Source: Peltaster fructicola (taxonomy: Eukaryota > Ascomycota > Dothideomycetes). Taken from it: 64,000 nucleotides of DNA. Positions within the stretch are counted from its first letter, which is position 1. Each line of letters opens with the position of its first letter. The translations under genes were made by a program, and so were the position numbers. Under the pieces are notes generated by a model. The model was not told the DNA's origin, did not search any database, and saw nothing but the letters and a program-made list of their open reading frames with translations. Positions 8,988-43,550 of this stretch are shown here, one piece after another. The stretch is taken from the NCBI GenBank assembly GCA_001592805.2, contig CP051141.1:2294001-2358000 (forward strand), in the 5' to 3' direction.

Positions 8988-11887
8988 AAGGCTCGCAACC
9001 GGAGCGGTGTCATGGTAGCTCGTCAACTCTGGCGCGAACGAGCTAATGACATTGCAACCTGACCGCCTGCAACACAATGCTTTACGATACCCATTGCTTT
9101 CCTCAACACAACTTCCAGAAGCATTCATGTGCTAAGAATGATTTCAAATTGTACAATACGTCAACGAACGGACTAGACGCGATCTGCACAGCCGGTCGTA
9201 ATGATGAGCTTAGAAAGTTCTGCTTGGACTGGAAGGCTTGTCTTCTCGACGCAACCTAAGATGGCCATGGTCTCCGGCGAGACTTAAGGATTACCACGCG
9301 ATGATATGCTTAAGTTTGCATATCAATGAACGCCTATCTTGTGTGGATATCCATGGTGATAGCTCAAGGAAATGCAGTGATTGTTCCATAGTCTGATCCT
9401 AGTGTTTTGTGATGTCGCCACGCCGCAGGCACTGATTTTATTGATGCCCGGGTACATATCTCCACCAGCAAGGAGGCTCTCTGTGCCGTAGACAATGATG
9501 CAAGGCGGCGTTCTCAGGTAATAACCGCTAGCAAGCCGTGCGAACGTATGGACAATTGGGTTTCGCTATTATCGGCGCAACAGTCGTTCGGACGGCATAT
9601 CATATCAGGGCACCAACTACCTTATCTTGACTTTCTGACGATCGCGCCAAGATTAGACTCTACACGCCTCAAGTTACAGTCCAAGCAAATCGCCGATGGG
9701 CCATCACATACGGATATTATGCTGCCGGCAAACAGGATGGATGTTGAGGTCAACGTTTGATGTGTTGGTGCTTGCTCTATTGCCTGACTATTTGCCGACA
9801 TGATACACGGTACGCACGGGTTATTCGGATGAATCCTGCCCAGCAGGGATGATGACTTTGCACAACACGCGAGCCTGCATCAGACCTTCGTCCAGTAGGC
9901 CGACTCCAGGAAACACATTGCGGAGTGCTTCGCGAGAGGGAGGTGTCTCCGCAACCTCGTGTTGTATGAGACAAGAACCGCCATGTGAATCACAACTTAT
10001 GCGGGTTGTCAAGGTGATACAGCGTTCTGCGGTGAATCCAACAATAATCTCTCGGCCGTTGTTGTACTCCCAAAGAGAGCAAGCCCACATACTCGCTCTG
10101 CTGCAAGCTACCGATTGGAAGAATGTCCTGCAAAGAAATCAATATCAGCGCTTCACTATCAGCAGCAGAAAGTCTCAAACGACCACTAGGCAAGGAAAGA
10201 CTGCAGTAAGGTTTTGACATCTGATTGTCTGACCGATAAGCACAGACGAAAGATCGAACCTCCTCGATAACAGTGAGATGATCTCGCTCTGCAACGGCGT
10301 TGTCGTGTTGCACGACAGACCATAACGGCATTGTAGTACTCTCTGTGCGACAGAGAAAAGATTTCAGTGGATATGGATTGGTGTGGTAACTCACAGTCAA
10401 TGGCGTGCCGTCGATGTCATCGTTCGAAACACCCGTGTGCTAAAAGGAGGTTGAAGTGACGAGCAACTTCCAGGCTGCTAAGGTTTCTAGTCCTCTGCCG
10501 TTGAGCTGCAGGGTAAATTACTCGTTCGCAGGCAATCCATGTCGTCTGGGTTGATTGGCATACAGGCCTCATCTCGACGGCGACAAGTTGGACAGCAAGC
10601 GTCCTTCGAGTTGACGAGCTGCAAAGTGCGCAGCAGCGTGGGCGTCGTGGTTTGGCGCTTTTAGCGCCGAAAACAAGAATCCATGATCTTCGTGGCGCCA
10701 GGTACCCGATGGAGTGAGAGGCTGGCACATGAGGCTAAAGCTCTCAGCATTAAGGTTTGATCCGATGCCGCTAATGACGGAAGGCATCCAACGTTACCTC
10801 TTCCCGCCTTTGCATCTGCTTCGACACGACAGCGATAATACAAGGGCGATAAACTTGGTCCTTGGTGTCACGGGTGGCAATGGCTGCGCCTTCGACGATG
10901 TGTACGGAAGCGACACGTCATTCGATGTTGCACAACACCCTTCGATGAGTCTTCTGCTTCTGCTTCTTCTGCTCGCTCACACCATGCCTACCAGGGTAGA
11001 GTTCTCGCCGTCCGGACCTGACAGGTGAAGTGGATCTCCTCCTGTTCAACGGCAGCGAATGCACAAGGACACGCCTGTAAGGCAGACGGCTAGACACAAC
11101 AGGCCCGACTGCCCTTGTCGATCTCTAGGGGCAATCTGCAATCCTGCCTCCAACGTGCGAAGCTTACTTCAAACTCTACGATGCGGCGACAAAGTGACGA
11201 GATTAGGGTGAACGACCCGGGTATCAGATGCTCTGAAAGCAAACTATAATCAGAGAAACCTGGACAATGGGCGGTCCGGGAAGGAATCTCAGAGTAGGAC
11301 GTGTGGCATCAAGTCCCAGCGTCTGTACATCAGAGAGTTTTGGGAAGTATACTTTGCGTTTTTGCCTACTTCCCAATATGCCGACATGCTTCCTTGGTCA
11401 CCGAAAGGGTCTTGCTTGGTCCATCACCGGTCAAAGCGTCTTTCGATCGACCTGCTTCATTATCGTTGTCCTTGAGCAGACACTCCCTTGTCGTCTTCAC
11501 ACGCTATCTGTCTCACCCACGACATCGCTACTTTCCTTGTTGCACGTGCAATAGCCATTGCCACCTCACCATAACTTACAATTTATCGCTAGCGGCTCAT
11601 ATATCACTCTCACCAACTAATGGTGGTCACACTTGGTTGAAGACAACGGCGGCCCAACCTGTATACACTCTTTCAACCATCGACGTTATACAGCCTCTTC
11701 TACCACTATATCCACCTTCGCTCGACCGCTCTACTGTGGCTTTTGACTTTCATTATCGACAGAAACAGCAATCCTTGTCTCGACCTGCTGCAAACGACCT
11801 CTCCGTGCAGCAATATCGCATGAGCATGGTTTAGCATCACAAAGGGAAACCCTCACAGCATAGGAATCACCTACAATCCACACCCAG
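8988..11887. other. Long intergenic region upstream of the glucan synthase
   Basis: About 2.9 kb. Apart from one uncertain multi-exon gene on the minus strand (9821-10787) no coding sequence is supported. The last 600 bases are pyrimidine-rich (repeated ctt/ctc blocks), as is usual for a long fungal promoter and 5' leader, and probably control the glucan synthase. Confidence 0.5.
9821..10787 (-). CDS. Uncertain multi-exon gene, unknown function
   Basis: The reading below is inference from splice signals and composition. Last exon: acceptor TTTGCAG (branch CTGAT) then FFQSVACSRASMWACSLWEY onward to GQDSSE and a stop at 9821. The middle exon holds MPLWSVVQHDNAVAERDHL and ends at a GTCAGA donor. 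The exon before it (GVSNDDIDGTPLT) lies between acceptor CCTTTTAG and a perfect donor GTGAGT near 10394. A possible first exon opens with MPSVISGIGSNLNAES at 10787, but no clean junction joins it to the rest, and a stop follows before the next acceptor. I recognise no family. It may be a real lineage-specific gene, a decayed one, or chance. Confidence 0.33.
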
Positions 11888-14800
11888 ATGGCGCCTGTCG
11901 TTTCTCTCAAACACATCCTGCCATTGGCAGCCTGGGCACTTCGAGCCACTGCTTCATACTACGACCCTGTAGAGGTAGACTACAACCTCAACACAAATCA
12001 GAATGCTCAGCATCCACTCGAGTACTCGATAACATGGCCTAATCACACATATCACCCAAGTCCTGAGAACTGGCGCATGCCATTCTACAGTTTCTTCCTT
12101 GACAGGTTCGTCAACGGCGATCCGACAAACGACAACGCCAATGGCACATCATGGGAACATGATATCCTTGGCACACAACTACGACACGGTGGTGACATGA
12201 AAGGTCTCGTCGATACGCTCGACTATCTCTACGGTCTTGGCATTCGATCATTGTACATCGCCGGAAGCATGATGATCAATTTGCCTTGGGAATCTGATTC
12301 CTACAGTCCAATCGATCATACGATCCTCGATCACCACTTCGGTACGCTGCAAGAAGTTCGCGATGCCATCCAAGCTATCCACGACCACGGCATGTACGTC
12401 GTCATGGACAACACAATGTCGACCATGTCGGATCTGTTTGCATTCACAGCCTTCCAGAATTCCAGCACACCATGGTCTTTCACCGAGCACGACATGATGT
12501 ACAAGAGCGAACTACGATACCGCGACTTCTCACAGTCAAACACATGGCAAGAGCAGTGTCCTGAACCATACCCTAGATTCTGGGATGAGGTTGGTGATCC
12601 GATCCACGACGACAACACTGCTCAAATGATCGGTTGCATGGACAGCGAGTTCGATCAGTATGGTGAGGCCGGTGCCTTCGGAAAATACCCTGAATGGCTC
12701 AAGCAACTGTCCAAATTCAACGCTGTTCAAGATCGTCTACGAGAATGGAAGCCAGCAGTGCTCGACAAGATCAATCACTTCTCCTGCATGGTCATCCAAG
12801 GCCTCGACATCGATGGCTTCCGTATGGACAAGGGTATGCAAATCACTGTCGATGCGCAAGGCAATTTCTCGAACTACATGCGAGAATGCGCAATGCAGGT
12901 TGGCAAGACAAACTTCTTCATTCCTGGTGAGATTGTCACGGGTAATGCTGAAGGTGCTATCTACATTGGCCGTGGTAAAGAGCAGAAGATGAAGGTCACA
13001 AATCGTACAGAGGCCGTGTCAACCAACAACACGCAAACCATTCGTCCTTGGGGCCACTCTGCTTTCGACGCTGGAGCTTTCCACTACTCGACTTATCGTT
13101 CATTCGTTCGTTTCCTGGGTCTGGACGGTAATCTCACAGCACCTGGCGATGTTCCTGTCAACTTCGCAGATGGATGGGCTGCTATGGTTGAGACCAACGA
13201 TCTGAACAACGCCTACACTGGCAAATTCGATCCTCGCCATATGTACGGCGTCTCCAACCAGGATGTCTTCCGCTGGCCTGGACTCACCAACGGTACCGAG
13301 CGTCAGCTGCTCGGTGATTTCATCGTCACGATGGTTATGCCAGGTATCCCAATGATCAGCTGGGGAGAAGAGCAGACATTCTACACGCTCGACAATACGG
13401 CGAAGAACTATCTGTATGGACGTCAGCCAATGTCATCGGCACAGGCTTGGCAGATGCACGGTTGTTACAAGGTTGGCGATGACAATCTGAACGAAGTGCC
13501 GTTCAACAGATCTTTGACAGCATGTCAAGACGACTCCGTCAGTCTCGATCATCGTGATCCTTCCTTTCCAGCATACACTCTGCGTAAGCAGATGTTCGAG
13601 CTGCGACGACGATACCCAGTCCTCAATGATGGCTGGTCTCTTCTTCAGCTCTCGAACCACACCTTCAACTGGACTCAGGTCGCTTCTAACAACACACCCA
13701 CCGAAACTGGATTGTACAGCGTTGTGCGAAGTGCATGGCAAGGCGTTCAGAACCTCGATGGTCAAGGAACGTACGGCAATCAACCTGTCTGGCTCCTTTA
13801 TTCGAATCAGAACGTCTCGAGGACATTCCTCGGCGATTGCAAGACAACGGACAATGCTATCGTGGCTCCTTTCAACCCGGGTACCAAGGTCAGGAACTTG
13901 ATCTACCCATTCGACCAGTATACTCTCGAGGACTCACCTGTGAAGTACGGCTTCCAGAACTCAACCAACCATAATGGATGCCTACCACAGCTCAACATGA
14001 CAATGTACGGCTTCAAGGCGTTCGTGCCTGTAGAGAACTGGACACTACCATCTCCATCGATCACCGGCTTCTCTCCAGGCCATGATGCTCGAGTTCTGTC
14101 AAACACAAGTGCAACTGAGCCGTCGCTGGTTGAGATTGAGCTTCGCTTCTCTAGTGAGATGGACTGCGACTCCGTCACAAATGGACTCACCATCGACTCT
14201 GCCACAGAGCACAATGTTCAGGCCACAATCAAGAAAGACAGCATCTCATGCTTGACCATTGACCCAATCTATGAAGCATACTACTATGGTCCAAGCCCGT
14301 CAATCTGGCGCTACCGCGCAGTCCTGGAGAATGCCTATGATGGTATACACAGGATCAATGTCAAGAACGCCACCAACCAAGCCAAAGATATGTTCACGGA
14401 CGCTCACGACCACTTCATGTTGAGAGTTGGACAGGCTGACAACGTCATGGTCTTCCCGAAGACTGCAAACTACAGCTCATCACTACTGTTCGAGCAGCCA
14501 ACATCTAAACGAGATCTCTCTATCGACAATGCCACTCACTACATCTCGCATAAGGCTGCTGGTGCCGACAAGTGGCGTTTCAGTATGTCCTTCGGTGCGG
14601 TATGGTCTGACTGGTACGACTACAAGCCTGGCAATGCATCTCTGCCAGCACAGACTTGGGTGGGAACCAAAGTTCAAGAATGGTCTGGTGAGCACGTGCA
14701 AGTGCAATACTGGTCAGCACTCTCCGGCAGCAGCTCACACATGCAAGAAGGCGACCTCTACGGTTCGACTGGACCAGCTCGTCGATTCCCGCACTTCTTC

Positions 14801-17800
14801 ATCCATGGTAGCTTCAACGAATACGGCTATGATTCTGGTATTCCAAATGAGATGGCACAACTCGACAATGGCACTTGGGAATTCGACTTCATGACTGAGT
14901 GGCCATCCCAATTTCAGCTCAATGTTTGGGGCATGGCAGCCAACAGTCTCACAGATGTCAGCTATGCCTTCGGAGACGTTGACAACGATACTGTTCTCGA
15001 TCGCATCAACCCTACCTCGCTACAACCCGCAGTGGTCAACGTCACTGATCTTGGACCACCATCTCCATTCTTATCATGGCGCATTCTCTTCAACGACGGG
15101 GACATGAGATACTACCTTGTGCCTGTTGGCAACCGCTGGGCACAGCTTGCATTGTCAATCCTTCTCGGCGTTGTACCACTTGCGACAGCATGTCTGTGCA
15201 GCTGGCTCTATGTGCGAGCTTTCTATGGTGTCAAGTTCAACCAGATCGGTCTTTCAGAGAAGCGAGCAATTCTGCCCTTCGCCATCTTCCAGCGTGGCCT
15301 AAAGTCGAAGAAAGAAGACGAGCTCAACGAGAAGAGTGACGACATGCTAACTCCAATCGAGCCGCTATCTCCTACTATGCTTGACCGCAGCCCACACGAA
15401 AGTGTAGGTGCTGCCGTTGTACAGAAGCGAAGGACAGTTCTGATCGCCACAATGGAGTACGACATCTCTGACTGGAACATCAAGATCAAGATTGGAGGAC
15501 TTGGCGTTATGGCTCAGCTGATGAGCAAGAACCTGCAACACCAAGACCTCATCTGGGTTGTTCCTTGTGTCGGCGGCATCGACTATCCAATGGACACTCC
15601 TGGCATGCCTATTACTGTTATGATCCTTGGTAAGGCTTACGACGTTCAAGTGCAGTACCACAAGTCCGACAACATCACATATATGCTGCTCGACGCACCT
15701 GTCTTCCGACGACAAAGCCAGAAGGAGCCATATCCAGCACGTATGGATGATCTCGACAGCGCTATCTACTACTCGGCATGGAATCAGTGTATCGCCGAAG
15801 CAATGCGACGATTTCCAATCGACCTATACCACATCAACGACTACCACGGAACAGTTGCGCCATTATACCTTTTGCCAAGCACTATTCCCTGCTGCTTATC
15901 CCTGCACAACGCTGAATTCCAAGGCCTCTGGCCGATGAGATCGCCACAAGAGAGTGAAGAGATCTGCTCAGTCTTCAACCTGCCGTCTTCGGTTGTCCAG
16001 CAATATGTTCAGTTTGGAGAAGTCTTCAATCTGCTTCACGCAGGTGCAAGCATTCTCAGAATTCACCAAAAGGGCTTCGGCGCTGTTGGAGTGAGCAAGA
16101 AGTACGGGAAACGATCCTGGGCACGCTATCCTATCTTTTGGGGTCTTCGAAGAATAGGAGCACTTCCAAACCCGGATCCGTCTGATGTGGCAGTCTGGAA
16201 CAAGAAGCTGGTTGACGTCAACGAGGTAGTCATTGACAGAGACTTCGAAGATGGCCGTGCTGAGCTCAGACGTCAGGCTCAGGAATGGGCAGGTCTTGAA
16301 CAAAAGGTCAACGCAGATCTCTTCGTCTTCGTCGGTCGATGGTCCATGCAAAAGGGTATCGATCTTGTCGCAGATGTCTTTCCGGCTATCCTTGAGAAGC
16401 ACTCCAGCGCACAACTCATCTGTATCGGACCTGTCATCGATCTTCATGGCAAGTTCGCAGCACTGAAGCTCGAGAAGATGATGGAGAAGTACCCTGGCCG
16501 AGTATACTCCAAGCCTGAGTTTACAGCACTGCCACCATTCCTCTTCAGTGGTGCTGAGTTCGCCCTCATACCAAGCAGAGATGAACCATTCGGTCTTGTC
16601 GCTGTCGAATTTGGTCGCAAAGGTGCTCTTGGTGTTGGTTCTCGTGTGGGTGGTCTCGGTCAGATGCCTGGATGGTGGTACACTATCGAATCCACCACTA
16701 CCAAACATCAGGTCGAACAATTCAAGATGGCCATCTCCGGAGCATTGAAGGCCGACTACGATACTCGAGCTACAATGCGTGCACGATCAGCCAAGCAGCG
16801 ATTCCCAGTAGCTCAATGGAAGGAGGACCTCGAGATTCTGCAGGCAAGCTCGATCAAGATCCACCGCGAACGAATGACCCGTCTTCAGAACAAGCGTCTC
16901 GGTATCGAGAGTGGAAGCAGCACACCGAGCGGCTGGACTACACCAAATCTGCTCGGATGGATCACTCCAAGAAGTGGCTGGAACACACCAAATGGTTATG
17001 CTACACCTGGAGGTCCAGCTTCGCCCGTCGTCAGTCAACCTACTACTCGTCCCTCGTCTCCATCCAGGCAAAGCCCCACGTCAAACACACCTGAGCAATC
17101 GCGAACTGCGTCCTTGTCTCTTGGAGTGCGAGTTGGTCCAGGCCATGTACCATCTGAGACTGAACTACATCACCATGCGTCGAAGCTTCACAAACCTGCA
17201 AGCGCACACTCCAATCACTCGGAGAGCAGCAAAAGCAACACATCCAGCGGTATCGAAGCGACTATCAGTCCGGAGCAAGCCGAAGACAGCAGACGACAAG
17301 CTAGACTAGCTGCAATCACTCAAGAGCACTTCAATGAACTCCGTGACGGTACAGGACATGTCTCCACACCGATCGTAACCCCTGGAATGGGTACACCCAA
17401 CTACTCATGGGCAGGACTGCCACGAGGCCAATCACCAGTGCGATCTGATGGCAACACTCCAGGTCCTCTGTGCTCTGCTAAGGTCATCCACGAGAAAGAT
17501 GGAAACGCACAAGACCTTACACCTTTCTTCACAGATCCTACTGGCATGTACTACCGCAACTTCGACAAGATGCTTGGCGAGCTCAATGGCAAGACGTCTG
17601 AGAGCCAGCTCTGTATCGAAGAGTACATCGTCAAATCAGAGAAGCAGTGGTTCCATCGCCTGTACCAAGCTCGTATGGCTCAGATGAAGGGTGGAGCAGA
17701 AGTCTCCGAGATAACCTCGCCTAGTGGATCGAGCTATGCAGGCAGCATCAACGAAGAGCCCATGTCGCAGTTCTTGCTACCGGAGAACTACAAAGCACCA

Positions 17801-19120
17801 ACAGGTTTACGAAGACTGCTCAGCCATAAGATTGGCGACTGGCCGATCTATTCGTTCCTGTTGGCTCTGGGCCAGATCCTCGCTGCCAACTCCTACACCG
17901 TCACACTGCTCACTGGACAACAAGGACAGACTGCGGAACGACTCTATGCGATTGCCTCCATCTACCTGGCTGCAAGCATATTCTGGTGGGTTATCTTCAG
18001 ACGATTTACATGTGTCTACACCATGAGTCTGCCTTGGTTTGCGTACGGTCTTGCCTTCTTCCTCATGGCATTCGCACCATATGCACCGACCGTTGAGGGC
18101 CGCGGATGGGTTCAGAACGTCGCCACGGCCATGTACGCGGTTGCATCGGCTTCTGGCAGTCTGTTCTTCTCCCAAAACTTTGGCAGCGAGGGTGTGGCAC
18201 CAACACAATCATGGACCTTCCGTGCTTGTGCAATCCAAGGCACGCAACAGCTCTATCTCGTCGGGCTTTGGTTCTGGGGTGACACTCTGACAAGAGCATC
18301 GGCTCAAGGACTGACTGCACAGTCGCAGCTGACTTATGGCTGGCCGATGACCGCTATTGGAGTGCCGGTTGCTGTATTCCTGTGGTCCATCGGCATCGTG
18401 CTCTTCCTCGGTCTCCCACAGTACTACCGACAGAAGCCCGGTGCAGTGCCAAGCTTCTACAGCTCGATATTCCGACGCAAGATCATCCTCTGGTTCTTCT
18501 TTGCAGTATTTGTGCAGAACTTCTTCCTCGCTGCTCCGTATGGACGCAACTGGGCATATCTATGGAGCTCGAACCACGCACCAAGCTGGACTATCGCTCT
18601 ACTGGTCATTCTCTTCTTCGTCTTGGTTTGGGCAACCATGCTCACGATCTTCGGCAGATTGTCCAAGGTACACAGCTGGATCATGCCAATGTTCGCGGTT
18701 GCACTTGGTGCTCCTCGTTGGGCACAGATCTGGTGGTCGACATCCAACATTGGCACATTTCTCCCATGGGCTGGCACTCCACTTGCCTCTGCTCTTCTCG
18801 GTCGCAGTTTGTGGCTCTGGCTCGGCGTCCTCGATAGTCTCCAGGGCGTCGGTATCGGCATGCTGCTGCTGCAGACCTTGACACGACTTCACATCTCCTA
18901 CGCACTCATCCTCGCGCAGATTGTTGGATCCGTGGGCACAATCATCTCACGAGCCGACGGTCTAGGCAGCATCGGACCAGCGACATACTTCCCAAGCCCT
19001 GCTGCAGATGTATGGGATGTGCTCAACTCTGGGGGCTTCTGGATCTGCATGCTCTTCCAGATCTTCCTCTGCATTGGCTACTTCGCTTTCTTCCGCAAGG
19101 AACAGCTGGCTAAGCCATAA
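11888..19120 (+). CDS. AGS1: Alpha-1,3-glucan synthase
   Basis: One uninterrupted exon of 2410 codons, the usual length of the family. It makes the alpha-1,3-glucan of the cell wall. Order: signal peptide (residues 1-22); an extracellular GH13 alpha-amylase-like domain (about 50-580) with the nucleophile region GLDIDGFRMDKG near 306 and the acid/base region FFIPGEIVTG near 346; a long extracellular part; one membrane span near 1075-1100; a cytosolic GT5 glycogen-synthase-like domain (about 1177-1650) with KIGGLGVMAQL, VGRWSMQKGIDL and the sugar-nucleotide motif SRDEPFGLVAVEFGRKG; a Ser/Thr/Pro-rich linker with repeated SGW-TP units (about 1675-1900); and a multi-span C-terminal domain (about 1975-2400) thought to export the chain. 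The start ATG is directly followed by the signal peptide. Confidence 0.97.
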   Translation: MAPVVSLKHILPLAAWALRATASYYDPVEVDYNLNTNQNAQHPLEYSITWPNHTYHPSPENWRMPFYSFFLDRFVNGDPTNDNANGTSWEHDILGTQLRHGGDMKGLVDTLDYLYGLGIRSLYIAGSMMINLPWESDSYSPIDHTILDHHFGTLQEVRDAIQAIHDHGMYVVMDNTMSTMSDLFAFTAFQNSSTPWSFTEHDMMYKSELRYRDFSQSNTWQEQCPEPYPRFWDEVGDPIHDDNTAQMIGCMDSEFDQYGEAGAFGKYPEWLKQLSKFNAVQDRLREWKPAVLDKINHFSCMVIQGLDIDGFRMDKGMQITVDAQGNFSNYMRECAMQVGKTNFFIPGEIVTGNAEGAIYIGRGKEQKMKVTNRTEAVSTNNTQTIRPWGHSAFDAGAFHYSTYRSFVRFLGLDGNLTAPGDVPVNFADGWAAMVETNDLNNAYTGKFDPRHMYGVSNQDVFRWPGLTNGTERQLLGDFIVTMVMPGIPMISWGEEQTFYTLDNTAKNYLYGRQPMSSAQAWQMHGCYKVGDDNLNEVPFNRSLTACQDDSVSLDHRDPSFPAYTLRKQMFELRRRYPVLNDGWSLLQLSNHTFNWTQVASNNTPTETGLYSVVRSAWQGVQNLDGQGTYGNQPVWLLYSNQNVSRTFLGDCKTTDNAIVAPFNPGTKVRNLIYPFDQYTLEDSPVKYGFQNSTNHNGCLPQLNMTMYGFKAFVPVENWTLPSPSITGFSPGHDARVLSNTSATEPSLVEIELRFSSEMDCDSVTNGLTIDSATEHNVQATIKKDSISCLTIDPIYEAYYYGPSPSIWRYRAVLENAYDGIHRINVKNATNQAKDMFTDAHDHFMLRVGQADNVMVFPKTANYSSSLLFEQPTSKRDLSIDNATHYISHKAAGADKWRFSMSFGAVWSDWYDYKPGNASLPAQTWVGTKVQEWSGEHVQVQYWSALSGSSSHMQEGDLYGSTGPARRFPHFFIHGSFNEYGYDSGIPNEMAQLDNGTWEFDFMTEWPSQFQLNVWGMAANSLTDVSYAFGDVDNDTVLDRINPTSLQPAVVNVTDLGPPSPFLSWRILFNDGDMRYYLVPVGNRWAQLALSILLGVVPLATACLCSWLYVRAFYGVKFNQIGLSEKRAILPFAIFQRGLKSKKEDELNEKSDDMLTPIEPLSPTMLDRSPHESVGAAVVQKRRTVLIATMEYDISDWNIKIKIGGLGVMAQLMSKNLQHQDLIWVVPCVGGIDYPMDTPGMPITVMILGKAYDVQVQYHKSDNITYMLLDAPVFRRQSQKEPYPARMDDLDSAIYYSAWNQCIAEAMRRFPIDLYHINDYHGTVAPLYLLPSTIPCCLSLHNAEFQGLWPMRSPQESEEICSVFNLPSSVVQQYVQFGEVFNLLHAGASILRIHQKGFGAVGVSKKYGKRSWARYPIFWGLRRIGALPNPDPSDVAVWNKKLVDVNEVVIDRDFEDGRAELRRQAQEWAGLEQKVNADLFVFVGRWSMQKGIDLVADVFPAILEKHSSAQLICIGPVIDLHGKFAALKLEKMMEKYPGRVYSKPEFTALPPFLFSGAEFALIPSRDEPFGLVAVEFGRKGALGVGSRVGGLGQMPGWWYTIESTTTKHQVEQFKMAISGALKADYDTRATMRARSAKQRFPVAQWKEDLEILQASSIKIHRERMTRLQNKRLGIESGSSTPSGWTTPNLLGWITPRSGWNTPNGYATPGGPASPVVSQPTTRPSSPSRQSPTSNTPEQSRTASLSLGVRVGPGHVPSETELHHHASKLHKPASAHSNHSESSKSNTSSGIEATISPEQAEDSRRQARLAAITQEHFNELRDGTGHVSTPIVTPGMGTPNYSWAGLPRGQSPVRSDGNTPGPLCSAKVIHEKDGNAQDLTPFFTDPTGMYYRNFDKMLGELNGKTSESQLCIEEYIVKSEKQWFHRLYQARMAQMKGGAEVSEITSPSGSSYAGSINEEPMSQFLLPENYKAPTGLRRLLSHKIGDWPIYSFLLALGQILAANSYTVTLLTGQQGQTAERLYAIASIYLAASIFWWVIFRRFTCVYTMSLPWFAYGLAFFLMAFAPYAPTVEGRGWVQNVATAMYAVASASGSLFFSQNFGSEGVAPTQSWTFRACAIQGTQQLYLVGLWFWGDTLTRASAQGLTAQSQLTYGWPMTAIGVPVAVFLWSIGIVLFLGLPQYYRQKPGAVPSFYSSIFRRKIILWFFFAVFVQNFFLAAPYGRNWAYLWSSNHAPSWTIALLVILFFVLVWATMLTIFGRLSKVHSWIMPMFAVALGAPRWAQIWWSTSNIGTFLPWAGTPLASALLGRSLWLWLGVLDSLQGVGIGMLLLQTLTRLHISYALILAQIVGSVGTIISRADGLGSIGPATYFPSPAADVWDVLNSGGFWICMLFQIFLCIGYFAFFRKEQLAKP

Positions 19121-32178: not shown

Positions 32179-35100
32179 ATGAGCTTCCGCGCCTTACTTC
32201 TCGCCTACATATTTGGCGGGCTGACCTTCCTACCTCTTCTGCTGGTCAGCATCCTCGCCGTACTATGGTACAGCTCGCCGATAGTAGATGAAGGCTCCAG
32301 AGACACCTCAGTCACTACTGATGCACAAATCAAAGCGAAGGAAGCAGCAGAGCTAGCAGCACAGAACAGCAAGAGTCCTACCGATGGAGCCGCAAGTGCC
32401 ACGTTCGCTGTCCTCCGTCGATATGACTTTCAAGGAGCAACTGCAGCTTTCAAAGAGGCGAGCAATCTTGCTGCGCAGGTAGAGGCCACTGGCGAAAGCA
32501 AGGGAAGTGAGAGCATATCCGTCTATCAGAGCATGTACAGAAGTGTCTTCGATCGAAACAAGAATGCCGCCAACCCGTTGCAAGAAGGAGAGACGGCGCA
32601 ACAGAACGTCAATGCAAAGGCAAGAGCAAGAGGAAAGGTGTTCTATATTGTACTTCGACATGGACATCTGATGTTGTATGACTCTCAAGTTCAGCTTGAG
32701 GTTCGTCATGTTATCAGCCTCGCACACTACGCAGTATCATTACAGGACGATCTTACCACAGATTCTGCTGAGATCATGGACGCCGATCTCTTCACCAAGC
32801 GTACAGCGATTGTGCTAACGCCCATACCGGACAAGCAGTTGGACGGCATGTCAAGCAGCCGCAAACCTTTCTACCTCTTCTGCGATGTCAATATCGAGAA
32901 GGAGGACTTCTATCACGCCCTCCTCACATCACTGGTAGATCCACCAATACCGAAAGCTATCGATCCGGAGTTTGCGATTAAGTTGCAATCTGCGTTGCAT
33001 TCAAGCTCGTTGAGTCAGGAAACTCGTGCTCTGAATGCGCTGCTAGGTCGCGTGTTCCTTGGCACACATCAAACGCCCTTTCTGGAGGCATTCGTACGCA
33101 GTAAGATCGAGAAGAAGATGGCTCGAATACAAAAGCCTGGCTTTATAGCCTCCATCGCATGTCACAGCCTCAGCCTTGGAGATGCTGCACCTATCATCAG
33201 CAATGTCCGATTAAAGGAGTTCAGTATCACGGGCGAAACAGTGCTTGCTCTTGACATGAAGTATTCTGGTGGAGTCAACTTGACCATAGCCGCTACGGCC
33301 AAGTTAGATCTCGGCCAACGATTCAAGACTAGAATGGTCAGTCTCCTTCTTGCTGTAGTCTTACAGCGTATCCAGGGAAAGATGCTGGTAAAGATCAAAC
33401 CACCACCAAGCAACAGAGTATGGTTCTGCTTCGACAGCATGCCCGAAATGGAACTCAAGATCGAGCCTGTTGTTAGCTCCCGACAAATCACCTATGCTTT
33501 CGTGCTACGAGCCATCGAAGCTCGGGTACGCGAAGCATTCGCAGAAGGTATGGTCAAGCCGAACTGGGATGATGTGCCATTCTTCGCCACGGCAGCGCAG
33601 AAGTGGAGAGGTGGTATATGGGAGTCAGAAGGACAAGAGGTTGAACAAGAGAAAGGTCTTGGCGAGGCCTCAGCCGCTGACAACCCACTATCAGCACACA
33701 ACGGCAAGACAATGTCCTCGCCTGATCTCGCGACCTCTGCTTCAGGCGCAGAGCTCAACGAAGCCCCTTCTGAGCTTCTACAGCGTCGTCCTACAGCTTC
33801 GCTTACTACATTGAATAGTAATGCTGACTCTGATCCGGGCAGTGCAAGGTCTGCTGCAGAGAAAGCATGGAACCAGACGTCACCGACTGCTCGAGCGCCA
33901 AAGTCTGTACGAGCTCCTTCATTCGCAGCTCCGAAAGCTCTGGTCGCTGTTGATGATCACAGTGCAGATGCAATTCGCTCAGGGGATCCACCGCCTCGAC
34001 GTCGCTGGATAGGCCGCAGCGGCGGACAAATGCAGACGTTGAAGCGGGATGCCGCTGAAGTAGTCCGCCAAGTAAGAGATAGAGATACATTGGTACGCAA
34101 AGATGGGACGCCGGACGCAGACGACGCAGAGAAAGATGATGCCTCGCTCAATTTGCCTTCTGACGCCGAGCTCGAAAGTCCCAGACGTGCCTCTGAACCT
34201 GGAGCTGAGGGCGTGAGTGCGCCCAAGAGAACCATGACCGGCTTTGGATCGATGGCTACAGACGCAGTGCCACGTCTCGGCGGACGACGTGACCATGCAC
34301 GACAAGAGTCACAGGACAGCGGAGTACAACGCAAGACCATTCTTGCAAGTACTGCTGCTGCTACTAATGCCGCTCGCCAGTGGACCTGGAACGCTGTGGC
34401 CAATCGTGCGAACCGCCAACAGCTTTGGAACCGTGGTGGACCGCAACGTCAAGGCTCGATGGCATCTACTGAGTCAGGACTATCGCAAACACCACCGAAG
34501 GAAGTAGCACAAGCTGAGCCTATTGGACGTGGCCAACCGCTTCCACCTCCAGGCATGCCACTTCCTGGTCCAGCTCCGAAGGGACTTTGGGGTTCAGCGG
34601 CTGCCGGGCTTGGCAGCATGCGAAGAAAGCCTGCACCAAGACTACCTGCACGAAGGCCAGAGCATCATGTCACGACTACACCATCTCAGGACGACCTGAG
34701 TATGAAAGATTCTGCAAGCTCAGCAGGGCACAGTATAGACGAAACTGACATTGAGCCTGACGCTGAGGGAGAGTTTGGACCTTGGATGGCGAACGATGAT
34801 GACGTTCAAGAGACGAATATTGCAAATGGCCAGGGCGAAGAGGAAAGGCCGGACTCACACGCGGATATCGTTCACGCACCAGAGCCTGCCACAACTCTGC
34901 CTCAGAAGAAGCCGGCTCCTCCACTACCGCCACGTCGCCGTGCTGTCGCTGACGATGCGAAGACGAAGGCCATACACGACAGTGTACCACAGCTGGTGCT
35001 CAGAGACGACGAAAACGTCGTACAGAATGTCCAGCACGACCAATCTCCTGCTAGCGCAACGGTCGCCAGTGTCTCAGCACACGATGAGACTGCACCACAA

Positions 35101-35373
35101 GACGAGGTCCAGAGTCCAACACCACCCGATCTGATCGACCTAGATGATGGGAGTGGTTCTGAAGAGGCGACACATGAGCATGTCCTATCAGAAGCCGATT
35201 TGGCTCAACTTGACGACGATATTCAGGCTATACCTGCTCCTGTGGATGCCCAAGCCGAAGAGACTGGAGTGCTTGACATTGAAGAGGACAACGCAGCTGT
35301 GCCTGCTGACGATCAGGGAGTAGAAGTTCCAGATGTGACACTGCGGTCGGATAGATCAGATACGAAGACATGA
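32179..35373 (+). CDS. NVJ2: NVJ2/TEX2-like lipid-transfer protein with PH and SMP domains
   Basis: A single exon of 1064 codons. A membrane anchor lies at about residues 5-30 (FGGLTFLPLLLVSILAVLWY). A PH-like domain (about 147-250) starts with ARGKVFYIVLRHGHLMLYD. The SMP lipid-binding domain (about 284-467) has NALLGRVFLGTHQT, ISNVRLKEFSITGETVLALD and the strand VWFCFDSMPEMELKIEP. The C-terminal half is disordered, with proline-rich APPLPPRRR near 915. Nvj2 works at ER-vacuole and ER-Golgi contacts and moves ceramide. It flanks the mating-type genes; a PH-domain gene in this place is known from related fungi. Confidence 0.9.
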   Translation: MSFRALLLAYIFGGLTFLPLLLVSILAVLWYSSPIVDEGSRDTSVTTDAQIKAKEAAELAAQNSKSPTDGAASATFAVLRRYDFQGATAAFKEASNLAAQVEATGESKGSESISVYQSMYRSVFDRNKNAANPLQEGETAQQNVNAKARARGKVFYIVLRHGHLMLYDSQVQLEVRHVISLAHYAVSLQDDLTTDSAEIMDADLFTKRTAIVLTPIPDKQLDGMSSSRKPFYLFCDVNIEKEDFYHALLTSLVDPPIPKAIDPEFAIKLQSALHSSSLSQETRALNALLGRVFLGTHQTPFLEAFVRSKIEKKMARIQKPGFIASIACHSLSLGDAAPIISNVRLKEFSITGETVLALDMKYSGGVNLTIAATAKLDLGQRFKTRMVSLLLAVVLQRIQGKMLVKIKPPPSNRVWFCFDSMPEMELKIEPVVSSRQITYAFVLRAIEARVREAFAEGMVKPNWDDVPFFATAAQKWRGGIWESEGQEVEQEKGLGEASAADNPLSAHNGKTMSSPDLATSASGAELNEAPSELLQRRPTASLTTLNSNADSDPGSARSAAEKAWNQTSPTARAPKSVRAPSFAAPKALVAVDDHSADAIRSGDPPPRRRWIGRSGGQMQTLKRDAAEVVRQVRDRDTLVRKDGTPDADDAEKDDASLNLPSDAELESPRRASEPGAEGVSAPKRTMTGFGSMATDAVPRLGGRRDHARQESQDSGVQRKTILASTAAATNAARQWTWNAVANRANRQQLWNRGGPQRQGSMASTESGLSQTPPKEVAQAEPIGRGQPLPPPGMPLPGPAPKGLWGSAAAGLGSMRRKPAPRLPARRPEHHVTTTPSQDDLSMKDSASSAGHSIDETDIEPDAEGEFGPWMANDDDVQETNIANGQGEEERPDSHADIVHAPEPATTLPQKKPAPPLPPRRRAVADDAKTKAIHDSVPQLVLRDDENVVQNVQHDQSPASATVASVSAHDETAPQDEVQSPTPPDLIDLDDGSGSEEATHEHVLSEADLAQLDDDIQAIPAPVDAQAEETGVLDIEEDNAAVPADDQGVEVPDVTLRSDRSDTKT

Positions 35374-35948: not shown

Positions 35949-36829
35949 CTATATGAAAAGAGTGGCGTCCTGCGAGGGTGGCAGTGTGCGATGGACTGTC
36001 TCCTTGGCCAATACACGATTGTAAGCTTCTTTGCGCAATCTGGACCTCTTGCTGCCTTTGTTCGATAGTTTTTCCTTTATCTTGTCTGTCTCTTCATTCT
36101 CTCGACGTTTGTGCCAGACGAGAGCAGGGGTCAGTAAAGAAGTGAGTTGTACAAATCGATATTACTTACACCAGTCTGAAACATCGTTGTGATTGCAGTT
36201 CATGAGTTGAGCAAGCATCATCACTTCCAGGTCATTCGGGAGACTGCAGACATCGAAGAAGTCCTCAGCCATCGCCTGCTCCCAGACCTCCCACATCCGT
36301 CTTGTACGCCTTTCTGACTCTGTCGAGTTCACCAGATCATTGTGATCGATCAGGTCTTGCGTTAGCCTGTTGTTCTTGTAAGTATGCAATGGCTGCTTCG
36401 AAATATCTTTGCCTTACTTGTTAGCTTTTTCTTTGGCTGCTTTGACAACTCGCATCTGATCAGCGATTGGTAGTGTTGTCGGCCGTTCCAATCCCTGAGA
36501 TGGTGTCGCGGATGACCGGAATATCGAATTCAAGGTCTCATCGTGGAGTTCATTGATCAGGTCGCACTCTGCGTCGTATACCTTATTCAATCCTCGCACC
36601 ATTTCGACTTGTATCGGCGCCCGAGTCGTCACCAGAATCCGACGCCCATAGCTGACCGGGTCGCAGACGTCCGATGACAATCCTGTTTCTTCCGGTACAA
36701 TTCCTTCTGCTTCAAGCACAGCCAAGACATCCTCGACCTGTTCGAGGAAACTGGAAGCTCTTGAGAGTTGCAGCAGTGGTTATGCTCCCGCTCGACACAC
36801 TTCTTGAAGCCTGCATTGCTTGTAGCCAT
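35949..36829 (-). CDS. MAT-linked homeodomain-like protein
   Basis: Exons 36801-36829, 36418-36750, 36170-36366 and 35949-36118 give 242 residues in one frame to a TAG. Introns 1 and 2 (50 and 51 nt) are normal GT-AG. Intron 3 (36119-36169) has a perfect GTAAGT donor, a CTGAC branch and a pyrimidine tract but ends in CG, not AG. The stretch from about residue 135 looks like a homeodomain: EDFFDVCSLPNDLEVMMLAQ (helices 1-2), then NHNDVSDW plus FWHKRREN, matching the VxxWFxNRR core of helix 3 with His at the usual Asn51. A Lys/Arg-rich tail (GSKRSRLRKE) may be a nuclear signal. It is transcribed away from MAT1-2-1. Extra MAT-linked ORFs with a possible DNA-binding domain are reported in Mycosphaerellaceae; equating it with one of those is inference. 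Confidence 0.62.
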
Positions 36830-37180
36830 CGTGTACAGAGCCAGGGAGACGTTGGGTGGTGGGTGGAGGACTCCTTGTTGTGGTTGTTGATGAGGTGAGT
36901 CTGCTCATACGAACAAGGACAGAATAGTGCTCAGCGACAACTCTGCCTTTCACTGCCCAGCCACTCGAATATCTACTAAGCTATGCAGCATAGGCAAGAG
37001 TTGGCGGATGTGAACTTCGTGTTTGTTTATTATCACATTTTGAAGAGGCTGGTGAGTTTGACGCTCCTTCCCGCCAATGTGATTTTGAAAACAACACCAT
37101 ATTTTCTTCTGTTTGTTTTGTCTTGCACATCATATCTCGATCACAACATCACCCTACTAACCAGCTACGACAAGCTGATC

Positions 37181-38458
37181 ATGATGGCAGCCTCAAGCAT
37201 TGTGATCGGGACCGCCAACACGCGGTTTGAGGCTCGCCGTATATCCCTCGACGAGCTCATTGACGAAGTGTACCACAAGCTGCGCAACCGCCTCAACGAC
37301 GGAAAGTCAGAACCAGCTGCGCCATTCACACAGATCGCTGTGTCTGGTCAAGACGGACTTAAGCGCCTGAAGGACCGCCTTGAGGAAGCCTTTGATCTTC
37401 CAGTGACTCTTGAGATCAACCTGGTAAGTTGACATAAATCTGCGTATGGCATGATCTATACTGACCGAGCACTCACAGTTCGCCAACACCATTAGTGCAA
37501 TGCCTGTATTCGATTCAGATGCTGAGGTCACAGCCACCTCCACAACCAACGATTCTCCAGCAATATCCACAAACAAGACCAAGATTGCGCGTCCGCAAAG
37601 TAAGTATTGTAATTACTGCTTATGATTTGCACCACGTATTTGTGTTGACCAATGCTGACCCTTCACCTCAATTTAGATGCCTTTATCTTGTACCGAAAGG
37701 ACTGGCACTCAGTAGTGGTTGCAGAGAACCCACACCTCCACAACAATCAGATCTCGAAGATCATTGGCGAAAAATGGCGAAATGAAGCTTCGGCAGTCAA
37801 GGACGAGTACAAGAAGAGAGCCGAACTCGTCAAGAAGCAGCATGCCGTTCTCCATCCCGACTACTCATACCAGCCCCGCAAGCCTTGCGAGCGCAAGAAA
37901 CGGATGACCAAGAACAAGCTTGCAAGATTGCAGGCCGAGGGAGCTATCGTGGCTCCTAAGCTTACTGTCAACACCAACACGCGATACGCAATGTTTGATG
38001 CTGGTCCAGAGGTCAATGACGGTCTGCTCCACCAATTCCAAGATGCTGAACTCTGGCCCGTCAACCGCTATGTCACCTCGGCCAATACTAATGCAGCTCA
38101 GCCACAACCACCAGTTGATCTGATGCTTCCACCAGTTGATACGGTCTGGAATATGGTGGGCGGTTCGCGCGCTATGGATATGACCAGCTTCGCAATCAAG
38201 GATTGCGAGCCGATGCACAAGATGGTCGTCGTAGACACATCGAACGCAACCGCTTGCGCAGACCTCATCGACTCTCACATGAGCGCACACCCGGGTCAAG
38301 AAAACATCAGCCTCGCCGACGTTGTCTCCGCACCCTGCGGCACTGATGGATTCGAAAATGAAGCTATGCGACAGGACGACTATCAGCAAGAGATGAGTAA
38401 CTTCTTCGACTTCGACTTCGCTTCTGGACACTCCTCAGCAACCGCTGTAGACCATTAG
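37181..38458 (+). CDS. MAT1-2-1: Mating-type protein MAT1-2-1 (HMG box)
   Basis: Exons 37181-37423, 37479-37599 and 37677-38458 (introns 55 and 77 nt) encode 381 residues. The HMG box spans about 119-190: the second intron splits the Asn codon of RPQNAFILYRKDW, followed by NPHLHNNQISKIIGEKWRNE, EYKKRAELVKKQH and HPDYSYQPRKP with a basic end (CERKKRM). This is the sequence-specific DNA-binding regulator that gives MAT1-2 identity and drives pheromone and receptor genes. Two adjacent ATGs (37181, 37184) open the frame; the first is used here. The acidic, Asp/Phe-rich C-terminus (FFDFDFASG) may activate transcription. Confidence 0.95.
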
Positions 38459-38986: not shown

Positions 38987-40920
38987 TCAGCCCTCACCGT
39001 CCTTCGCAACCTTGTCTTTACCACCTCCACCCTTTGCATCCCAGTCAGAGCACCATATGAACGTGGCGCACCTCCACTGAGTGCCCTTCTCCTTATCGCC
39101 ACTGGGACCAAGAGGGCGAGCACACATCCAGAAACTCCTACCTTGGTTATAACCCTTCTTTCTTTTGGTCAACATGCTTCTTGCAAGGCTCGCCATGTTC
39201 GCACAAAGGCGCTACAGGCCTCGAGAACAGAGCATTCCAGTTGCGATGGGTTTGCTCGCGTGCCTCGAAGCTCTGCATTGTCTTCGTCGGCGAATCACTT
39301 GTGGAAGCTGGTGAGTAAGGTTCGGTGAATGATCCATTTGCTGAACCAGGGTCGTTCTTCCTGACCTGCGCAGGACTACTGGCAGGCGTGAGCTCAGGCT
39401 TTACATCTATAGTGGCAGTACCGGCTGATGCAGGCACATCGTCGTCTGGGAAGCCATGGTCATCTTGCGGGTTTGATTCGCTGGTGTCGGTCTTCTTCGC
39501 TTGCAATTTGGGTTGGAAAAAGCCCATGAGACTCTTCTGTCCTTTGCCGGCTACAGCAGGATCAGACTTGGTCCTCTTCGGTGGGCTTATCTTTGCTGTC
39601 GTAGAACTCTTTCGCTTAAGCGCAGGGCTGCTAGTCAATGCTGGTGATGGCTGGAGGATTGGGATGCTTGGCTGCTGTATCTGTTCGGCAACATCATTAT
39701 CGCTAGGCTCTTCTGTAACAGATGCGGATTTCGTAAGAGGCGCTGCAAACATTGACTTGATGCTTCGGCGTTTGTCAAACTCTGGTAGTCGTCGGCCACT
39801 GAACTGAGGCACATCTTGTATGCGCCACTCTTGTAGTCTTTCGCCTTTCAAGAACACGCCAGTCGGGTTCATGAGGTCCACGAGTAGTTGCTGTTCTCCG
39901 ACCGTGTCGTGGAAGTCAATGTATACAGGGCAGTGATCGGAGCCAAGAAGCCCTTCTTGGATGTTCGCATCCTTGATCCACGACTGCAAACTCTCCGAGA
40001 CCAGGATGAAGTCGATTCGACTACCATAGTTACCAGGCCTTGCATTGATCTTCTGCTCCCAGTGAGTGTACATGCCTCGCCTGTCAGGATGGAAGCCACG
40101 ACTTGTGTCCCACAGCACCCCGGTCTCTCGACCTTTGTCCCGCTCACCGAAGACCTCGCCACCGATCAACAGCTGGTTGAATATACGTCTGTTGGGGGTC
40201 GATATGTACTGCTCGTGAGAAATGCCTTCTTTCCTGCAATCCTCGGCCGCTGAGGCTCCGTCCTTCTCATCGCGGGAGACATTGAGGTCCCCAACAAGTA
40301 TCACTGCTTTGCCGGAAGCAACAAGGTTGCGAATGCGTCGATCCAACGCACAATGGAATGCATGACGAAAGTCGTCTCGCTGACCATTGCTGTTCGCTGG
40401 TGCATAAACACCAAAGAGTATGAAGGCGGGAAACTCCAGTGCAACACATCGTCCTTCAGCGTCCAGCATTACAGGATCAACATTGAGGCCCTCGATCTGG
40501 TCGTCAGATAGATAGCCACCAATGTGCTGCTGAGCAGGTAGATCTCTGAAAGGGACGCCACTTGGTGATGGCAAGACACCCAGCAAGCCTTCTTCTGCTC
40601 TGATTGGAGCACATGTTGCATTACGAGTGTAGATCCCGACTCCTGAATAACCTTTCTTATGCTTGGGCAGGCTGAAGTAGCAGTCCCAACCATCAAGGAT
40701 GACCATGTCATCTCGGAGGTCCTTGCGTTGTATCTTCAGCTCTTGCATGACCACAATATCGCTTTCGAGGATGTCGAACATTGCTGGGTATGTCCTTGCT
40801 GAGTTCCATGGCTGGTATGCAAAGGGATTTCTTATGCCGTTCACGTTCCTTGTGCAGGTTAGTCTATAGATTGTCAGATGCCTCTTTGTACATGTATACT
40901 GACCATGTCGTGAGTCTCAT
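38987..40920 (-). CDS. APN2: DNA-(apurinic/apyrimidinic site) lyase APN2, frame interrupted near the C-terminus
   Basis: A 17-nt first exon (40904-40920) and a 55-nt intron restore the family start MRLTTWNVNGIRNPF; the main exon begins at 40848. Exonuclease III-type residues are visible: VMQELK, GYSGVGIYTRN, FGVYAPANSNGQ, VGDLNVSRDEKD, GSRIDFILVS and LGSDHCPVYI. A PCNA-like QKSLMGFFQPK motif sits in the disordered middle. The enzyme repairs abasic sites in the nucleus. The main frame stops at 39147 inside the GRF zinc finger; the rest (GRSFWMCARPLGPSG, WRCATFIWCSDW) continues one frame over to 38987. One extra base in the GGG run near 39151-39153 explains this. Confidence 0.9.
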
Positions 40921-41261
40921 CTTGAGATTTCATGCTCCGCTATTTCAAGCTCCTTGGTGGCCGCCTCAGACATAGCAAGACCCGGTATGCTGCTAGGTCT
41001 AAGCAAGGCTGCTACTAGGAGAGCGCTCGACAGGACGTTGTGAAGGCAGCGACGGGTAGCTGTCAAGACGAGCTCAATGCGTGAGAGAGGACGGGCACAT
41101 TCGACATGAGTGACGTCAACTGATAGCGCTAAACGCGCTTTCACGTGATCTCGTGCGACCATCGCTCCAAGAGGATATCCCATAGCACGTGCTCTTCCAC
41201 ACACAACACGGTCAACAACAACAATGGACGAAGCTTGCGAGTTCCGTATGCTTTGTTCAAT
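40921..41261. promoter_or_regulatory. Bidirectional promoter of APN2 and APC5
   Basis: In 341 bases it holds a palindromic CRE-like TGACGTCA (41112-41119), an MCB/E2F-like ACGCG core (41134-41138) and an E-box CACGTG (41143-41148), within 37 bases of one another. Such sites fit DNA-damage and cell-cycle control; function is inferred from sequence only. Confidence 0.45.
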
Positions 41262-43550
41262 ATGGCAAGATACCTGACACCAGCACGGATATGCACATTG
41301 GTGCTGATTGAGGCATATCAGAACGATGAGCTATGGGCCAACAAGCCCGAGACATCTTCGACGATCTTCGGCGTCATCGCGCGAGATTGTCTACAAACGA
41401 GCGAGCATGCATCTCTCGATCTATCAAAGGCCGTAGAGGTGCCGCGTAACGTGCTAGAGTATGGCAAGCCATTGGAGGGTCTCGATAGGAACGTCCCTGG
41501 AAGATCATGGTTGAGCCTGCTGATCAAGGATCTCTGGACATTACACACCATCGACGAGCTACACGAGCTTTTCCATCGTTGTATGCAGCTATTGGCGACC
41601 GCATCAGACCATACCAACCTGGAAGACGAAAGGGCAGACCCGATAACACGTGCATCACCAGTCGGACGGTTCATCCGGAAGTGTAACGTTGAGTTCACAA
41701 GGCTGCAATTTGCAGAGACACTCACACTATGGCACGCCTTTGTCGCATACCGCGAGCCGTCAAGAGCTATCTGGTCTCATCACTACCCAGCCATTGCGAA
41801 ATCAATGCCCGCATCCTCCGTGGGCCAACTTGGGTCGTCTGGTGGTGACCATTCCAGCGACAGCATACTCGTGGGCTCGGATACCATTGACACACTTCTT
41901 TGTGCTTCAGTGTCACAGCTGCAGAAATTAGGCCAGAGAGTGCCTGAACAAGTCAAGACCAAACTAGGAGAATGGCTTAGTACGCAACAAGCATCTCGAA
42001 TGCAGTACCTCCATCACTTCATGGCCTTCTTCGATACTTGGCGAGCTGGACAGTACAGTCTGGCCCTTGAGAATCTGCACAGATACTTCGATTACGCTGT
42101 AGCCAAGGACGGCGGTGAGGACATGAAAATCTATTACCAGTACGCCCTACTCCATCTGAGTGCATTGCACGCAGACTTCGAACACTGGGATGATAGTATC
42201 AGCGCTATGAAGGAGTGCATCGCGACAGCTCGGGAGAATCAGGACACAGCATGTCTGAACTTTGCACTATCATGGCTGTTATACCTTCGGCAATCCGGAC
42301 ATACAAGGAATGCGGCCAGTCTACGATCACTAGCAGCTATTGCCGGTGAAGGTGGCAGTGAGCGTGATGAGATAGCATTCCTCAAAGCAAAGGCACGGGA
42401 TAGCAAGCACTGGTCACTGATGAGTAGCACTCTGCTAGAGGAGACAAAATACGAGCTTCGTCACTACGGCATTTGCGCAAAAGCGGCTGAGCTTGTGCTG
42501 CAATCGTCTTATTTGAACGCACAGCACGCACTTCGATCAATGATACCCGCCACTGCTGTGTTCCAGCATGCGATATACGATAGACTTGGCCAAGCCCATC
42601 TTGCCAAGACTCTTCTCTCCTCTGTCAATATGACCCAGCACTGCTCGCTCGCTGACAGTACGCGCATTGTCTGTCGCCTGGCATATTATGCAGCGCAGCA
42701 TGGACATTATACGGAAGCCTTGGCCATGCTGCAAGACTATCGCCCGAGGATATCAGGGACTCTCAAGTTGGAGCAGAGGCTCACAGCCTTGGCAGAAGCT
42801 CTCGCGCTGTTACGTGCTGTCCGTCGGTCGGACATACAGGCTGCAGAATACCACATGATCAATCTCCGCCCTGTTCGAGACTTTGCAGATCTTGATCTTG
42901 TTGGATTGATTGAGCAGCTCGACATAGCTCTCTTGATGAAGCGACGTCAGCTGAGTGCTGGGCTGCAAAGAGTGAATGCTGCTCTCGAACGATCTAAGAC
43001 TCAGGACAATAGCGACATTGCCGAGACCTTGTCGCTGCTCATGCAGAAAGCCAACATCTTTGCCGCAGCGGGCAGAGCTACAAAGGGCTTTTCGATAGCT
43101 CTTCGAGCAGCACTGTCTGCACAACGCTGTCATGTGATGAATCTATTCGTTGAAGCACTGCACACATTAGCACGAATCTTCAACGATCTTGGTAAGTTTG
43201 AGGCCGCATGCGAGCTCAGTCAGGCTGCTTTGCCATATGCACTCGAAGGCAGCAACCTGTTGGTATCGGCACAACTCTTCGTCACACTGGGCGAATCATA
43301 TGTCGGTCAGATCACTGCAGCGCCTCAGGTGACGGAATCGAGACAATCACATCTTGCTCATGTTGCGTCCTCGCACATCGAGAGAGGTCGTGAGATATAC
43401 GAGCAGATCGAAGAATATGAAGGACAGCTTGACTGCCTTCTTATGCTGGCAAGATTGGCTCGCTGGGCAGACGATGAACCGAGTGCTGTTCGAGCTGATG
43501 CAAAATATCACCAGCTTGTGATCGAGCACGATGCACGACAGCTACAATAA
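41262..43550 (+). CDS. APC5: Anaphase-promoting complex subunit 5
   Basis: Single exon, 762 residues from the ATG of MARYLTPARICTLVLIEAYQ; the frame is open upstream but has no earlier ATG. The Anapc5 domain with TPR-like helices lies at about 279-380 (YYQYALLHLSALHADFEHWD, CLNFALSWLLYLRQSG), and further TPR-like repeats fill the rest to VRADAKYHQL. Apc5 is a scaffold subunit of the APC/C ubiquitin ligase that drives exit from mitosis. Its place beside APN2 and COX13 next to MAT is conserved in many Dothideomycetes. Confidence 0.9.
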   Translation: MARYLTPARICTLVLIEAYQNDELWANKPETSSTIFGVIARDCLQTSEHASLDLSKAVEVPRNVLEYGKPLEGLDRNVPGRSWLSLLIKDLWTLHTIDELHELFHRCMQLLATASDHTNLEDERADPITRASPVGRFIRKCNVEFTRLQFAETLTLWHAFVAYREPSRAIWSHHYPAIAKSMPASSVGQLGSSGGDHSSDSILVGSDTIDTLLCASVSQLQKLGQRVPEQVKTKLGEWLSTQQASRMQYLHHFMAFFDTWRAGQYSLALENLHRYFDYAVAKDGGEDMKIYYQYALLHLSALHADFEHWDDSISAMKECIATARENQDTACLNFALSWLLYLRQSGHTRNAASLRSLAAIAGEGGSERDEIAFLKAKARDSKHWSLMSSTLLEETKYELRHYGICAKAAELVLQSSYLNAQHALRSMIPATAVFQHAIYDRLGQAHLAKTLLSSVNMTQHCSLADSTRIVCRLAYYAAQHGHYTEALAMLQDYRPRISGTLKLEQRLTALAEALALLRAVRRSDIQAAEYHMINLRPVRDFADLDLVGLIEQLDIALLMKRRQLSAGLQRVNAALERSKTQDNSDIAETLSLLMQKANIFAAAGRATKGFSIALRAALSAQRCHVMNLFVEALHTLARIFNDLGKFEAACELSQAALPYALEGSNLLVSAQLFVTLGESYVGQITAAPQVTESRQSHLAHVASSHIERGREIYEQIEEYEGQLDCLLMLARLARWADDEPSAVRADAKYHQLVIEHDARQLQ

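Follow-up and report, generated by a model that had tools for sequence, protein, structure and literature searches.

We analyzed a stretch of 64,000 nucleotides from Peltaster fructicola (contig CP051141.1, positions 2,294,001 to 2,358,000 of the forward strand), called the window below, which contains the mating-type (MAT) gene MAT1-2-1 at 37184-38458 on the plus strand (introns at 37424-37478 and 37600-37676). The spliced MAT1-2-1 product is identical to AMS68_004812 of P. fructicola and carries an HMG box (PF00505, E 4.4e-17). Across a divergent intergenic region of 354 bp (36830-37183), a four-exon reading frame runs away from MAT1-2-1 on the minus strand (36829-35949). This candidate gene is a probable secondary MAT gene, or the relic of one, with a possible divergent homeodomain-like domain.

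The order of the locus is PH/SMP gene, candidate gene, MAT1-2-1, APN2-like gene and APC5. On one side lies a frame for a protein with PH and MMM1/SMP domains (32182-35373, plus strand; PF15413 and PF10296). On the other side are the APN2-like endonuclease (39150-40916, minus strand; PF03372), for which the name APN2 was taken from the MAT flank in published papers, and APC5 (41133-43550, plus strand, stop to stop; PF12862). Thus, the candidate gene adjoins MAT1-2-1 between conserved MAT flanks, as a secondary MAT gene does. Since the MAT1-1 locus of Hortaea werneckii is also bordered by APN2 and a PF10296 protein (PMC3744574), the candidate gene stands at the expected idiomorph site. The Hortaea locus differs in being the opposite idiomorph, and its genes Unknown-1 and Unknown-2 carry no domain description in the passage on that locus.

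Additional MAT genes, MAT1-2-12 and MAT1-1-10, have been reported in Teratosphaeria (PMC7513301). The same paper names MN531144 and MN531145 as accessions for T. destructans. Like the candidate gene, MAT1-2-12 lies next to MAT1-2-1 as an extra gene of the MAT1-2 idiomorph, in a Capnodiales-type fungus; the two are likened by position, and the passage names no domain. No Teratosphaeria match for the candidate product was detected at E≤10 in a database that contains T. gauchensis MAT1-2-1, the MAT1-2-12 sequence itself not being compared. In Cladosporium fulvum, the hypothetical genes ORF1-1-2 and ORF1-2-2 border MAT1-2-1, again with no domain named in the passage (PMC9453070), and here too the likeness to the candidate gene is one of position.

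The candidate gene starts with an ATG at 36829 and ends with a TAG at 35951-35949. Exon 1 (36801-36829), an open frame with MATSNAGFK and a GT donor at 36800, is followed by intron 1 (36760-36800, 41 nt), exon 2 (36418-36759, 342 nt), intron 2 (36367-36417, 51 nt) and exon 3 (36170-36366). Introns 1 and 2 are canonical (GT..AG), and a single frame is preserved across both. No Pfam match was detected at E≤1 in the 113 whole codons of exon 2. Exon 3 carries the putative homeodomain up to Trp48, namely helices 1 and 2 and the beginning of helix 3. The 245 codons are stop-free in four pieces, and one open frame has 121 codons. A first-pass annotation of this DNA had proposed a four-exon joined frame of 242 residues (245 in our count). 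Its ATG, stop, open frames and first two introns were confirmed, whereas its last splice, which gives DW-FWHKRREN, depends on an acceptor ending in CG.

By local codon usage, the coding frame ranks first among the three same-strand frames in all four exons, with 0.088 and 0.086 bits per codon for exons 3 and 4. Several values weaken this result. For exon 2, the score is 0.000 bits per codon, equal to that of the lowest of the 14 training frames; this training frame lies opposite an RRM gene (6668-8779) and probably represents a shadow frame. The best frames of non-coding stretches reach 0.132 (intron 3, 15 codons) and 0.061 (downstream, with five stops). The codon statistic is weak, and exon 2 is hardly told apart by it from non-coding stretches.

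Searches for homologues were negative. The protein search covered 5.8 billion sequences and products of 135-429 residues, and it finds only relatives that have exact five-residue words in common with the query. With the whole product, 406 candidates were obtained, none of which was a homologue at E≤10, and even a self match was absent. With residues 125-235, no homologue was found at E≤10 among 11 candidates. The same database contains MAT1-2-1 of P. fructicola, Hortaea, Teratosphaeria, Dothistroma and Pseudocercospora. Thus, the candidate gene appears to be unannotated, or annotated outside 135-429 residues. A scan of viral_contigs returned 33 pattern stretches with zero confirmed, and a search for a second copy in the genome found only the window's own exons.

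The missing annotated product, the score of exon 2 and the rivalry of the intron 3 and downstream frames with exons 3 and 4 would be expected if the locus held nothing but untranscribed open frames, opposite in strand to MAT1-2-1. However, a 121-codon open frame, two canonical introns that join the frame and the first rank of the coding frame in every exon all speak against this, as do the extra MAT genes reported for relatives in the passages cited (PMC7513301, PMC9453070). We regard the absence of a gene as very improbable.

The gene model is disputed at the third intron. Its donor at 36169 (GTAAGT) is good and follows the Trp codon at 36173-36171. In the join of the first-pass annotation, intron 3 (36119-36169) ends in ...TGCTCTCG and exon 4 (35949-36118) starts with TCTGGCAC, reading F-WHKRREN and onward to the TAG. 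This 3′ end is CG, without AG, which counts against the join. Immediately upstream of the CG end, the sequence shows a branch-like ACTGAC as well as a pyrimidine-rich stretch, and therefore the site looks like an acceptor that is non-canonical or no longer in use, or like an error in the sequence.

Between 36150 and 36041, exon starts were listed and kept if the intron ended in AG or the product exceeded 225 residues. Going downward from 36150, the first AG (36102-36101) falls where the WHKRR codons end, and no AG acceptor within 36150-36041 retains WHKRREN. The listed AG acceptors give a product of 189 residues that ends at Trp48, in-frame products of 234 and 224 residues without WHKRREN, or products of 267, 264, 228 and 226 residues in other frames; a CAG acceptor at 36088-36086 places the start of exon 4 at 36085. 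Since every listed AG acceptor loses WHKRREN, Phe49 and Arg53 are reached only through a non-canonical acceptor. Trp48 is encoded in exon 3 and is independent of the disputed site. Thus, of the two residues said to be kept, Trp48 stands, whereas Phe49 exists only with an acceptor that lacks AG. The sequence does contain the peptides SLPNDLEVMMLAQ, NHNDVSDW and WHKRREN, as had been described.

The pyrimidine-rich stretch without a terminal AG, the listed acceptors that stop at Trp48, omit WHKRREN or shift the frame, and the lack of a product of 135-429 residues in protein sets containing P. fructicola MAT1-2-1 are all consistent with a decaying relic. In that case, an ancestral MAT-linked gene would have lost the usable 3′ splice site of its last intron, its recognition helix would be unmade, and the homeodomain-like trace would be a fossil. 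This would be the ordinary decay of a secondary MAT gene. However, the four exon frames are otherwise stop-free over 245 codons, the correct frame has the highest score in both exon 3 and exon 4, if only slightly above non-coding stretches, and an error at a single site of the sequence could look alike. We consider a relic somewhat unlikely.

Of the five PF00046 loci in the genome, four have introns in the neighborhood of Trp48 to Arg53 (positions placed by eye, without transcripts). They lie before position 47 in two loci and within codon 52 in two, and the disputed intron lies within codon 49. The candidate gene thus resembles the genome's homeodomains mildly in intron placement, and there is no common position. 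As a side observation, the four homeodomain genes seem to be split by introns in or just before codons 47-53, so that six-frame searches catch only pieces of them.

A homeodomain-like helix-turn-helix had been proposed for the joined exons 3 and 4. With the first-pass join, the Pfam family Homeodomain (PF00046) ranked first in all three queries, with E values of 0.017 (whole product), 0.012 (exons 3-4) and 0.0026 (a trimmed segment of 61 residues); Homeobox_KN was second or third, below threshold. In a search of the sequences of solved structures with the same join, 14 matches were obtained at E≤10, the best four being homeodomain proteins (Pit-1 twice), and the best match, 2da2, aligned without gaps at E 0.0027. 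With the CAG variant, 2da2 was again first among 12 matches (E 0.01), and the other 11 are unrelated by name. Genome-wide searches with PF00046 and PF05920 gave five and four matches, the candidate gene not being among them.

A number of results weigh against this assignment. The Homeodomain scores of 15.4, 15.9 and 18.0 bits do not reach the curated cut-off of 22.9 bits; thus, the profile search that had been suggested placed the family first for the first-pass join and below its threshold. By comparison, five homeodomains encoded elsewhere in the genome reach 28.8-76.2 bits, all above the candidate gene. The WW variant gave 13.8 bits (E 0.052), and neither the CAG variant nor exon 3 alone gave a Pfam homeodomain match, the helix-turn-helix match of the CAG variant being HTH_69 instead of Homeodomain. 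Over an overlapping region, the family DUF6909, whose function is unknown, scores almost as well (E 0.026-0.048 for the first-pass join, 0.019 for the CAG variant), and with the WW variant it is ahead of Homeodomain (E 0.0042). Unrelated families reach E 0.007-0.05 alongside the true homeodomains of the genome; therefore, an E value of about 0.01 falls within the noise. With our own profile, built from eight homeodomain sequences of this genome and PDB segments, the candidate scored 4.2 bits, a value matched by 33 of 5000 shuffles. In hhalign comparisons, the score of the join was reached by three of 300 shuffles and that of exon 3 alone by 52 of 300. Furthermore, as had been claimed, the column of the near-invariant Asn51 holds His in the ungapped alignment.

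The fold models, which are single-sequence predictions, were partly in agreement with a homeodomain. With exon 3 alone, helix 2 and the first part of helix 3 are predicted at homeodomain positions. Against this, helix 1 was placed at positions 1-17 in the 51-residue model and ended at 16 in the other, whereas helix 1 of a homeodomain is usually at positions 10-22. Homeodomain-containing chains were the majority among the fold matches listed, none of which was significant. Thus, the proposed helix-turn-helix is suggested by the sub-threshold Pfam hits, the best structure matches and the register of helix 2 and the helix 3 start, whereas the join, Asn51, the scores and helix 1 do not conform to it.

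The sequence case for a homeodomain is suggestive and depends mostly on the disputed join. The gene might be a real secondary MAT gene that resembles a homeodomain by chance, its C-terminus being another helical or basic domain. The nearness of the signal to noise in shuffles and unrelated families, the similar scores of DUF6909, the loss of Asn51 and the HTH_69 match of the CAG variant would all fit such a resemblance. However, sequence and single-sequence structure indicate the same family, in a register that is mostly equal, and we consider chance resemblance unlikely. Membership of the homeodomain family is weakly supported. Because the score is below the curated cut-off and Asn51 is missing, we file the candidate as a probable secondary MAT gene and not as a homeodomain protein.

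Based on these results, we tentatively prefer, as a possibility, a fast-evolving secondary MAT1-2 gene that lies back to back with MAT1-2-1 and would encode about 190-245 residues, with a divergent homeodomain-like helix-turn-helix at the C-terminal end. Under this secondary-gene reading, the candidate gene may be expressed together with the HMG protein gene from a common divergent promoter, and its product may adjust the target genes of the HMG protein. Because Asn51 is missing, we propose that DNA binding would be weak or would depend on a partner. That a divergent homeodomain-type regulator and the HMG master regulator act together in one filamentous-ascomycete MAT1-2 idiomorph is quite unlikely. 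If true, the idiomorph would use a logic of HMG and homeodomain proteins that is known to date in yeasts and basidiomycetes, and this could be the hidden nature of 'unknown' MAT open reading frames in related fungi.

A functional analogy would be with MATa1/MATalpha2 of yeast and HD1/HD2 of basidiomycetes, in which homeodomain regulators are encoded at MAT. These are recognized homeodomains with Asn51, whereas the P. fructicola product has His at this position and a score under the threshold. In yeasts, homeodomain proteins function at the mating-type loci. They also act at those of basidiomycetes, and in Podospora, croziers still formed when homeobox genes were deleted, including in a strain lacking six of them, according to the passages of the same paper (PMC3360767). 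A real homeodomain-like protein in P. fructicola would therefore bear on whether homeodomain mating control was lost or hidden in filamentous ascomycetes, and the extra MAT genes of relatives would gain a testable hypothesis. In Dictyostelium, the mating-type proteins MatA and MatB, for which a role as divergent homeodomain regulators has been argued, are reported to have a homeodomain-like fold that is undetectable by sequence comparison alone, with solution structures solved and DNA binding described (PMC5580921). The candidate product is similar in that it may be a mating-type protein whose homeodomain-like fold escapes sequence comparison. However, structure and DNA binding support the Dictyostelium case, whereas the P. 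fructicola case is suggested by sequence and models, and nothing indicates common descent. In the passages returned by a literature search, which did not extend to the primary locus papers on Teratosphaeria and C. fulvum, no homeodomain in a filamentous-ascomycete MAT idiomorph was described.

The genome searched is small (five contigs, 18,987,130 bases). No MAT1-1-1 alpha box above the cut-off was found in this one strain by a profile search that disregards introns, and thus the sequenced strain appears to be MAT1-2. A MAT1-1-1 candidate on contig C5 (33 profile positions, 21.1 of the required 28.1 bits) was below the threshold and was not accepted. SLA2, identified by its I/LWEQ domain, is at 1,560,011-1,560,513 of the MAT contig (C3), about 0.77 Mb from MAT. 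Therefore, the common APN2-MAT-SLA2 linkage is broken here; the corresponding separation in C. fulvum is given as 1.43 Mb (PMC9453070).

Rfam at gathering scores gave no match in the window, NCBIfam likewise gave none, and no notable repeats were found around the MAT locus. A 23-nt pair with 78% identity in exons 2 and 3 of MAT1-2-1 (37535-37557 and 37733-37755) is probably due to chance. A relative of MAT1-2-1 (37% identity, with 92% of the query covered) was detected on a contig of 3000 bases, the flanks of which might carry an orthologue of the candidate gene. Elsewhere in the window, a stop-free frame of 2418 residues (11864-19117, plus strand) with alpha-amylase and starch-synthase domains resembles an ordinary alpha-glucan synthase.
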